This document shows positions 14,214-32,971 of a stretch of 64,000 nt of DNA, piece after piece. This stretch comes from Tepidanaerobacteraceae bacterium. Its GTDB lineage: Bacteria; Bacillota; Thermosediminibacteria; Thermosediminibacterales; Tepidanaerobacteraceae. Position numbers and translations under genes: made by a program. The notes below the pieces were generated by a model, which had not been told where the DNA came from, did no database searches, and saw nothing but the letters and a program-made list of their open reading frames with translations. Location of the stretch: assembly GCA_024655905.1 (NCBI GenBank), contig JANLFP010000008.1:1-64000 (forward strand), in the 5' to 3' direction. Position 1 is the first letter of the stretch. Each line of letters opens with the position of its first letter.

Positions 14214-14260
14214 GGGACGGATTGAGTCAGAGAACCGTCCCCTGACTCGCTGACTCAGGG
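14214..14260 (+). repeat. Nested inverted repeat of the GGGACGG...CCGTCCC / TGACTCA type
   Basis: GGGACGG (14214-14220) pairs with CCGTCCC (14235-14241); inside and beyond it, TGAGTCAG and CTGACTCGCTGACTCA also pair or repeat. It can act as a terminator for the first small gene. Its end supplies the AGGGAGG ribosome binding site of the next gene. Similar GGGACGG units recur in other clostridial genomes, from memory. Confidence 0.6.
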
Positions 14261-14269
14261 AGGTTTCAT

Positions 14270-14458
14270 ATGGCATTTAAGAAAAAGCTTTTTGCTCAGA
14301 AAAGGACATTTGCACGGCAAGAAACGGGAGCCAATATTTTCAAGCCTGCAGGAAGGCCGCATCCGCGCGAGGTCCGATCTCAAATGGCACAGTTGGAAAG
14401 CAACCAGCCCGGCACCAGAAAAGATGTAAAAATAAAGATGGATAAAAAATTGAATTAA
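14270..14458 (+). CDS. Small basic protein of unknown function
   Basis: A 62-residue, Lys/Arg/Gln-rich protein beginning MAFKKKLFAQKR. AGGGAGG lies seven bases before the ATG. Its stop overlaps by four bases the end of the converging phosphatase gene. No domain or signal peptide is seen. It may be nucleic-acid-binding given its charge, but this is only inference. Confidence 0.6.
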   Translation: MAFKKKLFAQKRTFARQETGANIFKPAGRPHPREVRSQMAQLESNQPGTRKDVKIKMDKKLN

Positions 14459-15624
14459 AAGTACATTACATTAACGTTTTTTCCCATTTTTTCCAATATC
14501 ACTATTATATCGCGAACTATGTTCAGCTTTATGGATAAGTCTCCCGGAAAATCTGGATTCTGATGCGCGGGGTTTACTGCTTTTCCCAGCAGAAAGGTTA
14601 AATCCGTGGCGTCTGCAAGTAGTTTCGCAAGCCTTGAGGCGCCATCTTTTTTTTCCATCTGCTTTAATTCAGAAAGTCCCACCCCAGGCAAAACAAACTG
14701 CCGCAATATCTGTCTCGCGCGTGCAAGCGTGAGCACTCCTTCCGTAACTAGGTCGATCCCCTGTATGCTTGCCGCGGGAGGAACATCAGGGTCTATAAAT
14801 TCTGTTGAGGTGACAAGTTCACGCTTTAATATTCGAGACACTATGCCGGCAGCAGTTCCGCCGCATACAACTTTTTTCCCGGGGCTTTCCATAAGAATTT
14901 TAACCACTTTTTCATCGTCGGCCATGTTCTGGGGAGGACCGGCAAATATTGTTGCTCTTCGCGGTCTTATTATCTTTATTGCCGCAATAGTGGCATCGTC
15001 TCCCGCCCGCTCCATATAAAAATTCGAAGTAACAGTGGACAGAATCCTTGCAATGTTTCTTGGAGCTGTCTCTGTCTTTGAAATTTTCTCAATATATGCG
15101 GCTATATTCTCCCACTGCCATCCCAAATTCAAAAGACCACCAACTCCAGCATGCACCACTCCGTCGCTCACCGCTATCAGCATGTCATTTTCCTCTGCCT
15201 TCAAATGGGTCTCTTTGATTAATTTGCCGGCAATCTCCCGTGTCATCCCATTCAGATGTTTAATCTTTCCATTCCTTAATAGAAAAACCGGAGGATTGTC
15301 ATACTCCACTATATAGCAATTGCATTTTTCATCTATCACAATTATCGTAAATGTCGAATAGGCTATCTTTCTGATTTTGCATACCGGAAGCGTGGATACA
15401 ATGGTTTTTACCGTATCTTCTATTGAAGCCCCGCCTTTTAGCATCGTAGCAGCTATTTTGGTAGTAAGGGTAGAAAGTATATTGGCTTTCACACCGCTTC
15501 CAAGGCCATCTGCCATTACAAAAATGGTTTTCCCGAAACAGCGGACTAACTCCACGCTGTCACCGCAGAGTTCCTCTCCGAATTTGTTTATGCTTTCCCA
15601 GTAAATGTCAGTCCTTATATCCAT
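14455..15624 (-). CDS. SpoIIE/PP2C-type serine phosphatase linked to the sensory hydrogenase
   Basis: A 389-residue protein. Residues 5-215 have the PP2C fold of the SpoIIE group, with MADGLGSG near residue 37, the metal-binding AVSDGVVHAG, and GDDATIAAI. The C-terminal 170 residues are an extra domain (CGGTAAGIVSR, later GLSELKQ) that I do not recognise. The ATG at 15624 is preferred over 15645, as GGGTGA precedes it. The gene overlaps the HydS-like gene by 17 bases, so it is translationally coupled. In such operons the phosphatase is thought to relay the hydrogenase signal to a downstream target. Confidence 0.85.
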   Translation of the reverse strand: MDIRTDIYWESINKFGEELCGDSVELVRCFGKTIFVMADGLGSGVKANILSTLTTKIAATMLKGGASIEDTVKTIVSTLPVCKIRKIAYSTFTIIVIDEKCNCYIVEYDNPPVFLLRNGKIKHLNGMTREIAGKLIKETHLKAEENDMLIAVSDGVVHAGVGGLLNLGWQWENIAAYIEKISKTETAPRNIARILSTVTSNFYMERAGDDATIAAIKIIRPRRATIFAGPPQNMADDEKVVKILMESPGKKVVCGGTAAGIVSRILKRELVTSTEFIDPDVPPAASIQGIDLVTEGVLTLARARQILRQFVLPGVGLSELKQMEKKDGASRLAKLLADATDLTFLLGKAVNPAHQNPDFPGDLSIKLNIVRDIIVILEKMGKNVNVMYF

Positions 15625-17347
15625 TTTCTTCACCCGGTATTTCATCTATAAGCAGTTGTTTTACTTTGTTTAACATCACTTTGGTCTCTGCCGTGGTTTC
15701 ACCAAGCAAACTCGCTATCTCCTGCGCCACCCTCATCTGCTTTTCGATGACCTCCTGCGTGGTTTCCAGTGTTTTTTGCCTTACTTCCATATTTTTCATC
15801 CGAGCCATCTCCTGAGCCGTAATGTCCGAAATTATTCCTACAATAAGGTTGTGTTCCTTTAAATAACAAATATTTTGCTGTGTTATAAGGCCATAGTTTT
15901 TTATTATCACCTTTTTGTTTAATATATTTTTAAAAGTCGTGCCAACCAGCCTGAAATTCTCATCATTGAATAAACTACCGAGCGGTTTATGTTTAATTCT
16001 GTCTGCCTTTATCTGGAACATTTTCTCTGCCGATGGATTCATCTCCTGAACATTCATGTCTTTATCCACCACGATTATGGCATTCGGTGTCGATTCTATG
16101 ATGATGTTTGAAAAAGACTCCGCTCTGTTTCGCATGTATGGCATGCACATATGAATTTCAGCCATGCCGTTGTAAACGGCAACAGCCTTCTCACGGCACG
16201 TATTGTAACCGCAGGCACCGCAGTTGAGTTCGTCTTCCGGGGCAATCTTGCCGATTTTTTTCAGAATATTTTTAATCTCTGTTTCGGAAGGATATCTCAT
16301 CTTAACTACTTTCGGCGAAAAATGTTTCGATAGTTCTATGTTTTGACATTCTTCAGCGGTGAAGGCTGCATATTCTCTGTCTCTTGCATTAGTATTGCAA
16401 GCAAAATCCTTTATTCTTTCAATACGCTCAAATACACCGCAATCTGTACTGCCCTCCGCCGGTCCATTGCTGCAGCTTCCGTGACAGGCATTCATCTCTA
16501 TCCAGGTGTTTTGAAGCTTTCCCTTTTTTAACTCCTCAAGAAGTTTCATGCAGGCTTCCAAACCATCAACGCTGATAAAGCGCCGCCATAGCTGCTTCAG
16601 CAAAGGTTTTATGGTTAAAAACGTACCGCCGGGAACAGGATAAAAATTTGCATCATCGGAAAAGCCGCCTTTATTGTCGGATTCTGCAGCAGGGTCTATG
16701 CCTTGTTCAAAAAACCACTTTCTCACTTCTTCAAAAGTCAATACAGCGTCTATATCATTACTATCATCATCGTATATCTCCATTTTCTTGGCAAGACATG
16801 GCCCGATGAAAACCACCTTTGAATGTCTTTTAACCTTTTTTAAATATCTTCCATGAGCCACCATCGGGGATACTATGGGAATCATGCAATTCACCAGTTC
16901 GGGGTAGTATTTTTGAATTAAGTAATTTACAGCAGGGCAGGCAGTTGTAATGATATTTGATATGCTTTTATCATTATATATTTTCGCATAATCTCCTGCT
17001 ATAATGCGGGCCCCCATCGATGTCTGATAAACTGCCGAAAACCCCAGCCTTTTTAAAGCGCTGACCACCTGACCGTAATTTTGAAAACAAAAAGCTCCCG
17101 CAAAGGAAGGAGCCAGGCTTACAGCTATATCCTTATCCTCTTCAATAAGTCTTTTTACCTTTTCCACGTCACTCTTTACCGTTTTGGCATTTTGAGGGCA
17201 TACTGTAAGACATGTGCCGCAGGTGATGCATCTTTCCTCCACAATCTCGGCCTGATTGTCCTTCATTCGTATGGCTTTAACGGGGCATGCTCTGATACAT
17301 TTATAACAATTTTTGCAATTCGCCTTGGTAAAATTGATAACCTCCAT
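15608..17347 (-). CDS. HydS-like sensory [FeFe]-hydrogenase with ferredoxin and PAS domains
   Basis: A 579-residue protein. Residues 1-60 hold two [4Fe-4S] motifs (CKNCYKCIRACP and CITCGTCLTVCP). Residues 75-360 resemble the [FeFe]-hydrogenase H-cluster domain: TTACP (about 135), GPCLAKKME (about 181) and NACHGSC (about 286) keep the H-cluster cysteines, but the first loop lacks the extra proton-relay cysteine of the catalytic TSCCP motif. Residues 370-400 carry NCGACGYNTC, a further Fe-S domain, followed by a PAS domain (about 415-515) and a helical end. This is the layout of group C sensory hydrogenases, which probably sense hydrogen rather than make it. Confidence 0.88.
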   Translation of the reverse strand: MEVINFTKANCKNCYKCIRACPVKAIRMKDNQAEIVEERCITCGTCLTVCPQNAKTVKSDVEKVKRLIEEDKDIAVSLAPSFAGAFCFQNYGQVVSALKRLGFSAVYQTSMGARIIAGDYAKIYNDKSISNIITTACPAVNYLIQKYYPELVNCMIPIVSPMVAHGRYLKKVKRHSKVVFIGPCLAKKMEIYDDDSNDIDAVLTFEEVRKWFFEQGIDPAAESDNKGGFSDDANFYPVPGGTFLTIKPLLKQLWRRFISVDGLEACMKLLEELKKGKLQNTWIEMNACHGSCSNGPAEGSTDCGVFERIERIKDFACNTNARDREYAAFTAEECQNIELSKHFSPKVVKMRYPSETEIKNILKKIGKIAPEDELNCGACGYNTCREKAVAVYNGMAEIHMCMPYMRNRAESFSNIIIESTPNAIIVVDKDMNVQEMNPSAEKMFQIKADRIKHKPLGSLFNDENFRLVGTTFKNILNKKVIIKNYGLITQQNICYLKEHNLIVGIISDITAQEMARMKNMEVRQKTLETTQEVIEKQMRVAQEIASLLGETTAETKVMLNKVKQLLIDEIPGEENGYKD

Positions 17348-17593
17348 TTAGTCTTCCCCCAATACTTTTTGCCTGAAAAAATCTTCTACTTTATCTTTGT
17401 CCACTGAATAAGGCCCTTTTTCATCAATCTTTACTGAAACGGGTTTGGTACAATGCCCAAAGCAGAATTGAGCCTTAAGCTCCACCTGCTGGTCCAGTTG
17501 ATGTTGTCTTATAAGCCGCTCCAGTTCTCTTATAATATCATAAGAACCTTTAAGATGGCAGGAACTTCCCACACAAACTCTTATAGTTTTCAT
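17348..17593 (-). CDS. Thioredoxin-like [2Fe-2S] ferredoxin (NuoE-type) of the sensory hydrogenase operon
   Basis: An 81-residue protein. CVGSSCHLKGS and FCFGHC supply the four cysteines of a thioredoxin-fold [2Fe-2S] cluster, as in NuoE and hydrogenase small subunits. It probably passes electrons to or from the HydS-like protein. The ATG at 17593 has AGGGG six bases upstream; the earlier start at 17647 has none. The gene abuts the HydS-like gene without spacing and is the first of the operon. Confidence 0.87.
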   Translation of the reverse strand: MKTIRVCVGSSCHLKGSYDIIRELERLIRQHQLDQQVELKAQFCFGHCTKPVSVKIDEKGPYSVDKDKVEDFFRQKVLGED

Positions 17594-17669
17594 TTCTATC
17601 CCCTTGCCTTTATTATATAATACCTGAAAAATCTTATTCAACAGCAATTATCAGGTTTGCCACAATATT

Positions 17670-17699
17670 ATATTACATCATTCCATCTGTGTTTGTCAA
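17670..17699 (-). promoter_or_regulatory. Sigma-A promoter of the sensory hydrogenase operon
   Basis: TTGACA (17699-17694) and TAATAT (17675-17670) have an 18-base spacer on the minus strand. Transcription would start about 70 bases before the ferredoxin ATG. Confidence 0.6.
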
Positions 17700-17815
17700 G
17701 TTTTTAACAATTTAGCATAAATAAAATAATTTGCCAGCAATTGATTGAGCCACCGGAAGATGATGTTGTTTTGCCCTTAACCGTGGCGGTATGAATATAT
17801 AGCGTTAGAACCATT

Positions 17816-32756: not shown

Positions 32757-32965
32757 AAAAAAATTAAAGCCTCTCAATCCCTTTAGGGACGAGAAGCCTT
32801 CTCGCGGTACCACCCTAATTGGCTAAAAAAGCCCTGCTCTTTTGCCTTTTAACGCCTGCCGGCTTTTTATTCAAGGCGAGTTCAAAGCTATCTCCTTCCG
32901 GATTTTCACCAGCTTCCGGTCTCTGCAAAGGGTTTTAGCCTCTACTACTCCTTTTGACACCTTTT
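32757..32965 (-). promoter_or_regulatory. T-box leader, leucine-specific, upstream of leuS
   Basis: The T-box core AGGGTGGTACCGCG lies on the minus strand at 32816-32803. Further upstream, GAACTC presents a CTC codon (32880-32878) as specifier, which reads leucine. The AGTA motif of stem I is near 32950. The terminator is AAGCCTTCTCGTCCC paired with GGGATTGAGAGGCTT and ends in TTTTTTT (32763-32757). Uncharged tRNA-Leu would stabilise the antiterminator. The promoter is directly upstream. Confidence 0.93.
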
Positions 32966-32971
32966 TTAGAT

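Follow-up and report, generated by a model that had tools for sequence, protein, structure and literature searches.

A compact three-gene operon on the minus strand of a 64,000-nucleotide stretch of Tepidanaerobacteraceae bacterium DNA (contig JANLFP010000008.1, positions 1 to 64,000; this whole stretch is called the window) belongs to a described kind, namely class C3 of the [FeFe]-hydrogenases in HydDB, and corresponds to the hfsABC part of hfsABCD of Thermoanaerobacterium. It is an unremarkable and well-conserved representative of a signalling class that has been described but is poorly understood, a gene set which is thought to let fermenting bacteria sense H2 and steer their metabolism by way of a protein phosphatase. 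The operon quite likely encodes such a module, in which H2 at the hydrogenase-like protein HydS would set the output of the phosphatase HfsC and so shift fermentation, with transcription gated by Rex. What is new here is the evidence on an unnamed C-terminal domain of the phosphatase and the breadth of a Rex-like site upstream of such operons, and the most surprising thing lies in the relatives and not in the window. Phosphatase-linked sensor operons are common: of 398 genomes from the phylum of the window (the window's own genome included), 122 were found to carry the C-terminal domain, mostly in frames of about 380 to 410 residues.

Open reading frames together with Pfam and NCBIfam profile searches delimit the operon at window positions 14455-17647. 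A preliminary description of this DNA had proposed an operon of a [2Fe-2S] protein, a HydS-like PAS protein and a PP2C phosphatase; that description is accurate, and all three genes lie on the minus strand. The features of the operon and its upstream region are as follows.

17693-17710, palindrome: Rex-operator-like site TTGTCAAGTTTTTAACAA, one mismatch to TTGTTAA-N4-TTAACAA
17670-17699, minus strand: predicted promoter by consensus match, TTGACA (17699-17694), 18 nucleotides, TAATAT (17675-17670)
17348-17593, minus strand: hfsA-like gene, thioredoxin-like [2Fe-2S] protein of 81 amino acids (PF01257, E-value 6.1e-8; cysteines 7, 12, 44 and 48)
15608-17347, minus strand: hfsB or hydS-like gene, putative sensory [FeFe]-hydrogenase with PAS domain, 579 amino acids
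17186-17332, minus strand: two N-terminal [4Fe-4S] motifs of HydS (ferredoxin clusters; cysteines 11, 14, 17 and 21, and 40, 43, 46 and 50)
16460-17131, minus strand: H-cluster domain of HydS (Fe_hyd_lg_C, PF02906), residues 73-296, E-value 8.5e-51
16139-16228, minus strand: C-terminal iron-sulfur (Fe-S) motif of HydS (PF04060), residues 374-403, cysteines 376, 379, 384 and 401
15956-16102, minus strand: PAS domain of HydS (PF00989), residues 416-464 as the best Pfam stretch, E-value 3.1e-7
14455-15645, minus strand: hfsC-like gene, SpoIIE-type PP2C phosphatase with an extra C-terminal domain, 396 amino acids, overlapping the hydS-like gene
14971-15606, minus strand: PP2C (SpoIIE-type) domain of HfsC, residues 14-225, aspartates 29, 46, 161, 216 and 217
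14458-14970, minus strand: unnamed alpha/beta C-terminal domain of HfsC, residues 226-396 (171 residues), from predicted fold and conservation

The ATG of the hydS-like gene lies immediately 3' of the hfsA-like stop codon, and an alternative, longer hfsA-like frame that reaches 17647 from a TTG start was judged less likely. The previously reported overlap between the phosphatase and sensor genes is real, amounting to 38 nucleotides from the first ATG, or to 17 from the internal ATG at 15624 (Met8), which is probably the true start since it fits most aligned homologues. The idea that the overlap indicates a direct signal output is reasonable, but such an overlap is also a sign of ordinary translational coupling.

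Relatives were collected as 50 loci in named genomes by searching with short peptides of the phosphatase alone, and they are not an unbiased sample. The loci belong mostly to Bacillota, with some from Fusobacteriaceae. A HydS frame lies directly upstream of the phosphatase in 49 of them, and the remaining locus (L055) ends at a contig edge; the two frames overlap in 47 of the 50 under a first-start rule and are separated by gaps of 2 and 6 nucleotides in the other two that have HydS. The HydS frame is broken or split in L015 and L053. An HfsA-like gene is present in 43 of the 50 loci, HfsD in 17 and HydA in 12, some loci being cut short.

Phylogeny of the H-cluster domain separates the window HydS from the catalytic hydrogenases, the placement on which its proposed sensory nature had been made to depend. 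The tree (IQ-TREE, LG+C20+F+G4, midpoint root) holds 83 rows, five of them with long end branches, 11 of an initial 94 rows having been dropped as they had no H-cluster domain; HydS frames of L015, L042, L044, L045 and L052, which are short, cut or without the dipeptide CP, are left out. The window HydS falls among 45 phosphatase-linked rows that split from the rest at 98/89, and the group A rows form one separate set at 100/100 and those of group B one at 89/93; gene context and protein length, not the HydDB classifier, decided which rows were labelled A, B or C3. The phosphatase-linked side also holds a short protein of the window's genome, on a long branch. HydDB lists class C3 as a phosphatase-linked, putative sensory [FeFe]-hydrogenase with a serine/threonine phosphatase (PMC5037454). 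The window operon, with an H-cluster domain whose cysteines are kept, a fused PAS domain, a linked phosphatase gene and a place apart from groups A and B, shows no known difference from that definition. In the genome of Vallitalea guaymasensis, a C3 and a group B enzyme are reported at peg.96 and peg.98 (PMC6163223).

The H-cluster cysteines were correctly described as kept. HydS carries the motifs TTACP at residues 134-138, FIGPC at 180-184 and EMNACHGSC at 284-292, and C137 (inside TTACP), C184, C288 and C292, which we take to be the ligating cysteines, are all present. The assignment to a sensory-type class with a phosphatase output is backed by the phylogeny and by HydDB C3; the argument that had been drawn from the proton-relay cysteine is not diagnostic. 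The window does have Ala at the position that corresponds to C299 of CpI. Yet 20 of the 47 phosphatase-linked HydS rows with a letter there (4 of 51 have none) carry Cys, 17 Ala (the window included), 8 Ser and 2 Tyr, so loss of the relay cysteine is not a defining trait of the phosphatase-linked class. The constant change is found instead at the M353 position, which is Gly in 47 of 47 rows, and all 47 also retain the next cysteine after the relay position. The M497 position varies, with Asn in 28 of 45 rows. PMC8163306 states that relay residues of group A are missing in related subclasses, which, for this position, is not true of every row in the present sample of phosphatase-linked proteins. 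TmHydS of Thermotoga maritima (group C), set beside the window protein by its description (PMC10055695), likewise has an H-cluster domain, a PAS domain and altered residues near the H-cluster.

The first part of HfsC is a PP2C domain of the SpoIIE type. PF07228 matches residues 38-225 (E-value 3.6e-14, 53.6 bits against a gathering cut-off of 25), and the five listed aspartates, which we take to be the metal-binding residues of PP2C, are invariant in an alignment of 48 sequences, namely the window and 47 of the 50 loci, with three incomplete or split frames omitted. Two cysteines of this domain, C27 (15565-15567, minus strand) and C89 (15379-15381, minus strand), are also invariant in all 48. 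An AlphaFold2 model of the full-length protein has a mean predicted local distance difference test score (pLDDT) of 85.4 and a predicted template modelling score (pTM) of 0.75, and its best match is the PP2C domain of SpoIIE, 5mqh (Foldseek E-value 2.5e-16, 21% identity). HfsC shares the PP2C fold with SpoIIE of B. subtilis, but has a C-terminal alpha/beta domain instead, and scores 44.8 bits against the SpoIIE equivalog TIGR02865 (spore_II_E), whose cut-off is 490.8.

That C-terminal domain, noticed at the outset as an unrecognised region of about 170 residues, is well conserved and has no named family. Residues 226-396 of the window protein match no Pfam or NCBIfam family at E-values up to 1, no family is consistent over the 48 members (the best two occur in 8 and 3 of the 48, at non-significant or marginal E-values), and there is no match of note among PDB sequences. 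The domain is present in all 48 aligned sequences with 18 invariant positions, among them GPP, D, GG, PP, EG, T, N, A-H and K. Predicted alone it gives a confident alpha/beta fold (pLDDT 86.8, pTM 0.84). A Foldseek search with it returned no match at an E-value of 1e-3. With VIA-align, almost every top row is the alpha/beta domain of a molybdopterin/tungstopterin oxidoreductase (FhcB, FwdB, NuoG, FdhF), with Z 9.2 to 8.1 over 116-124 residues at 10-13% identity for ranks 1-6 and Z 9.2 to 6.6 over 109-131 residues for ranks 1-15; rank 10 is a chain of Nfn-ABC, other folds begin at Z 6.0, and the tool warns that best Z values of 7-8 are common. Since it comes without a sequence or Foldseek match, this likeness is a hint and may reflect a common arrangement.

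In three genomes of one genus the C-terminal domain stands alone, as frames of 156-159 amino acids (from open reading frame calls) directly after hydC-hydB-hydA. These lone copies are 63-69% identical and appear to be under purifying selection, with a nonsynonymous divergence (dN) of 0.25 and a synonymous divergence (dS) of 2.8 for the one computable pair, the other pairs being saturated. They keep GP, D19, G37, the TDG motif, N133 and K148, whereas H136 and T81 are not kept. Two loci from other genomes, L093 and L096, hold a divergent HydS-HfsC pair behind hydA, at the same place, and the lone copies therefore look like the remnant of such a pair. Because lone copies are kept behind hydABC, the C-terminal domain probably has a role of its own which is linked to hydrogenase operons.

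Transcription of the operon is probably gated by Rex, judging from the palindrome upstream. The site TTGTCAAGTTTTTAACAA lies 100 nucleotides before hfsA, overlaps the TTGACA hexamer of the predicted promoter, and is the sole match in the window with at most two mismatches to the clostridial Rex consensus as it stands in PMC8457756. Shuffled sequence gave 0.54 matches on average and at least one match in 44 of 100 shuffles, so the position weighs more than the count. The promoter prediction is weak on its own, as the scan found 13 matches where 9.4 were expected in the scanned region, and a second promoter-like match lies nearer to hfsA, at 17641-17612. Across the relatives, Rex-like sites with at most two mismatches occur upstream of 27 of 45 hfs operons, 10 of these sites having one mismatch (0.54 expected in mononucleotide shuffles). 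The 45 operons include that of the window and leave aside L028, L041, L042, L044, L052 and L055, which have no upstream sequence or no partner. The corresponding figure for other transcription units of the same loci is 4 of 141, from which 15 units classed as 'redox' were counted apart (5 of 15 with a site); one of these 15, named HydB by BLAST in L049, reads at its beginning like an aldo-keto reductase. A Rex site at hfsABCD of T. saccharolyticum was predicted earlier (PMC5886521). The window's own genome encodes Rex at its hyd locus.

In the proposed mechanism, H2 would react with HydS (HfsB) at a slow, sensor-type H-cluster, electrons would run through the Fe-S clusters of HydS and through HfsA, and the PAS region would change state. 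This change would release or restrain the co-translated PP2C phosphatase HfsC, which would then dephosphorylate a serine/threonine-phosphorylated protein, and fermentation would shift between H2/acetate and ethanol. The module would in this way join an NADH/NAD+ signal, read by Rex, with an H2 signal, read by HydS. We infer the sensing of H2, the signal from HydS to HfsC with its sign and its target, and the same role for the operon in this organism. The genetics comes from T. saccharolyticum, in which strains lacking hfsA, hfsB or both made high ethanol and had a two- to threefold higher adhE transcript, while deletion of hfsC and/or hfsD gave no rise in ethanol or adhE, and deletion of all four genes gave no substantial increase (PMC5707799). 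This epistasis places HfsC and HfsD downstream, restrained by HfsA and HfsB. According to the same paper, deletion of hfsB raised ethanol in every organism tested there.

The resemblance of the window operon to hfsABCD is close, as both have the order [2Fe-2S] protein, HydS with PAS domain and PP2C phosphatase, and both have a Rex-like site upstream. A Thermoanaerobacterium locus among the relatives (L016), with the order HfsA, HydS, phosphatase, HfsD, is 48% identical to the window in HydS and 52% in the phosphatase. The systems differ in that hfsC of T. saccharolyticum is followed by hfsD, a group B hydrogenase. No hydrogenase frame follows hfsC in the window, so an adjacent hfsD is absent. 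A 428-residue monomeric hydrogenase encoded elsewhere in the genome was considered as an HfsD acting in trans; it is group-B-like but was rejected at 369.6 bits against a group B1 cut-off of 450. The published phenotypes may for these reasons not carry over to the window operon, and several further observations weigh in the same direction against an H2-signalling module. The phosphatase-linked HydS proteins that retain the relay cysteine may include catalytically competent members. Sensory-type proteins do not form one group in the tree, where, under midpoint rooting and with long branches, a sigma-54 fusion protein and a group-D-like protein of the same genome branch on the side of groups A and B. 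Of the 45 hfs operons, 18 have no Rex-like site within two mismatches, and the 27 with a site include near-copies (L011-L013, L037/L049, L050/L051) and are not independent. No obvious target for a partner switch was found, as two STAS models match at one place only in the genome, on contig C32, beside a SpoIIAB-like kinase. A STAS anti-anti-sigma target encoded near the operon was rejected. A more interesting candidate, as a possible opposing kinase, is the DRTGG-HATPase protein of the hyd operon (L060, 4760-5569, contig C22).

Alternatively, HydS could use its Fe-S chain together with HfsA to sense redox state, that is ferredoxin or flux, and the H-cluster would then serve as an electron valve or a slow catalyst. 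HydS has eight cysteines for N-terminal clusters as well as a C-terminal Fe-S motif, and the operon encodes a [2Fe-2S] protein besides; this fits the idea, as does the relay cysteine that 20 of 47 relatives keep. We consider it unlikely, since a pure ferredoxin sensor would need no H-cluster, and yet the cysteine after the relay position is invariant and the clade stands apart from the catalytic groups A and B. There is a slim chance that the HydS-type protein is simply a working fermentative hydrogenase, with the phosphatase regulating the hydrogenase itself. Many relatives retain the Cys of TTCCP, Shaw et al. (2009), as told in PMC5707799, ascribed much of H2 production to the hfs operon, and in the latter paper deletion of hfsA or hfsB cut H2 production more than deletion of all four genes. 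The same paper reports that deletion of hfsB alone raised hydrogenase activity in a viologen assay, and this, with the Ala at the relay position of the window, the uniform Gly at the M353 position and the phylogeny apart from groups A and B, speaks against a catalytic role.

The slimmest chance is that of HfsC being a sporulation-type (SpoIIE) phosphatase which acts on SpoIIAA and ties H2 to a sporulation sigma factor. SpoIIE is the closest relative of its PP2C domain in the PDB, and the genome's only STAS place adjoins a SpoIIAB-like kinase, but HfsC falls far below the spore_II_E cut-off, and a separate frame of 713 amino acids on contig C9, with a weak match to the phosphatase profile (E-value 1.8e-4), may be the true SpoIIE. 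The relatives moreover include Fusobacteriaceae, which are not known to form spores. Signalling from H2 to fermentation through HydS and HfsC is the reading that we prefer.

The surprise in the relatives is a TnpB-like gene, which in 7 of the 50 loci comes immediately behind hfsC or hfsC-adhE and is followed by a conserved RNA element just 3' of its stop codon. The genes encode proteins of 489-539 amino acids, and three examples of the RNA element are given with them.

L019, 10047-11651, plus strand: TnpB-like gene
L025, 7213-8682, plus strand: TnpB-like gene
L027, 7213-8799, plus strand: TnpB-like gene
L030, 7191-8672, plus strand: TnpB-like gene
L047, 7302-8840, plus strand: TnpB-like gene
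L056, 10014-11633, plus strand: TnpB-like gene
L057, 7182-8732, plus strand: TnpB-like gene
L019, 11664-11779, plus strand: conserved RNA element
L030, 8726-8800, plus strand: conserved RNA element
L115, 2636-2710, plus strand: conserved RNA element

The HydS proteins of the seven loci make up exactly one clade, at 100/99. Each of the seven source genomes has the gene at one place. Of 11 genomes from the family to which L030 belongs (the source genome of L030 included), 10 have it, and in all 10 it lies beside hfsC. The gene was found in 0 of the 398 genomes of the window's phylum, a set that held no genome known to carry it, so that this is not a meaningful negative. The protein gave a weak, below-cut-off match to Cas12f1-like_TNB in two of the three scanned. 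Judged by the canonical RuvC motif, all seven proteins have Ser, Thr or Ala where the first aspartate would be expected; four zinc-finger cysteines are kept. The gene looks like a domesticated, nuclease-dead TnpB.

The RNA element has an invariant GCTATCT end; the sequence that comes next is variable and short, and in most loci it leads to a hairpin resembling a terminator. The proposed structure of the element consists of three helices, one of them a pseudoknot, and in 16 rows, 15 of them distinct, 98.6% of the cells are paired. Double changes occur in 16 cells, and the covariation score was reached by 0 of 500 shuffles. Two of five covariation measures did not rise above shuffles, namely the number of pairs with a double change (4; 74 of 500) and that of further pair types (8; 475 of 500), and only one of the five pairs in the pseudoknot varies. 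No Rfam match was obtained in the four loci searched. The element looks like the scaffold of a TnpB guide RNA. A guide target was not found inside the loci. The 13-mers that lie behind the gene mostly hit the terminator hairpins to which they themselves belong, apart from a few A+T-rich hits in L030 and L057, and the hits of 8-10 bases to the putative start of the guide showed no clustering. Gene and RNA together resemble the nuclease-dead TnpB repressors (TldR) of flagellin and csrA loci (PMC13418256), and the literature search showed no TldR-like protein at a hydrogenase or adhE locus among the matches listed.

A more far-reaching reading of the C-terminal domain is conceivable, though we regard it as doubtful. 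The domain would be an autonomous redox/hydrogenase signalling module that either senses a ligand or binds to hydrogenase subunits, is able to work where there is no phosphatase (as where it stands alone after hydABC), and makes the phosphatase an integrator of H2, through HydS, and of a metabolite signal, under Rex. In one clade it would be joined by the domesticated TnpB, nuclease-dead in appearance, with its structured RNA, and the control of fermentation would then be partly RNA-guided. Which region of HfsC does the sensing and which the signalling, and how the H2 and NADH signals combine, are questions made testable by the domain boundary, the lone copies of the domain and the Rex-like site.

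The same genome has other hydrogenase systems, with nine Fe_hyd_lg_C places in all, one of which is a group A6 HydA by NCBIfam; the short group-B-like enzyme, the group-D-like protein and the sigma-54 fusion are others. The group-D-like protein, so labelled by reading, lies beside hydABC and has 448 amino acids, an H-cluster domain and Fe-S motifs, and no PAS domain. On contig C1 (L059, 9340-11997, minus strand), next to nuoE/hydB/hydA-like genes, a protein of 885 amino acids fuses an [FeFe]-hydrogenase H-cluster domain, Fe-S motifs, a PAS domain and a sigma-54 AAA+ activator with a helix-turn-helix. It is possibly a one-protein, H2-responsive activator of transcription. Genes in L037 and L049 are similar to it by BLAST, and may share a part only; no report on such a fusion of an H-cluster domain with a sigma-54 activator was among the literature matches listed. 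On contig C22 (L060, 4131-13086, plus strand) Rex, the DRTGG-HATPase protein, the group-D-like hydrogenase, an HATPase and HydA are encoded in one run, with DRTGG-like, PHP-like, HydC-like, small ferredoxin-like and HydB-like genes, named by reading, between them. This run is a putative second sensor system of the genome.

Two further features of the window were observed. The sequence GGGACGGTTCTCTG, at 14228-14241 on the minus strand, has one exact copy in the window, where 0.01 would be expected with up to one mismatch; it lies about 220 bases beyond hfsC, within a stretch that looks palindromic, and looks like a dispersed repeat. A T-box leader is located at 32782-32967 on the minus strand, with 93.3 bits against a gathering score of 93.

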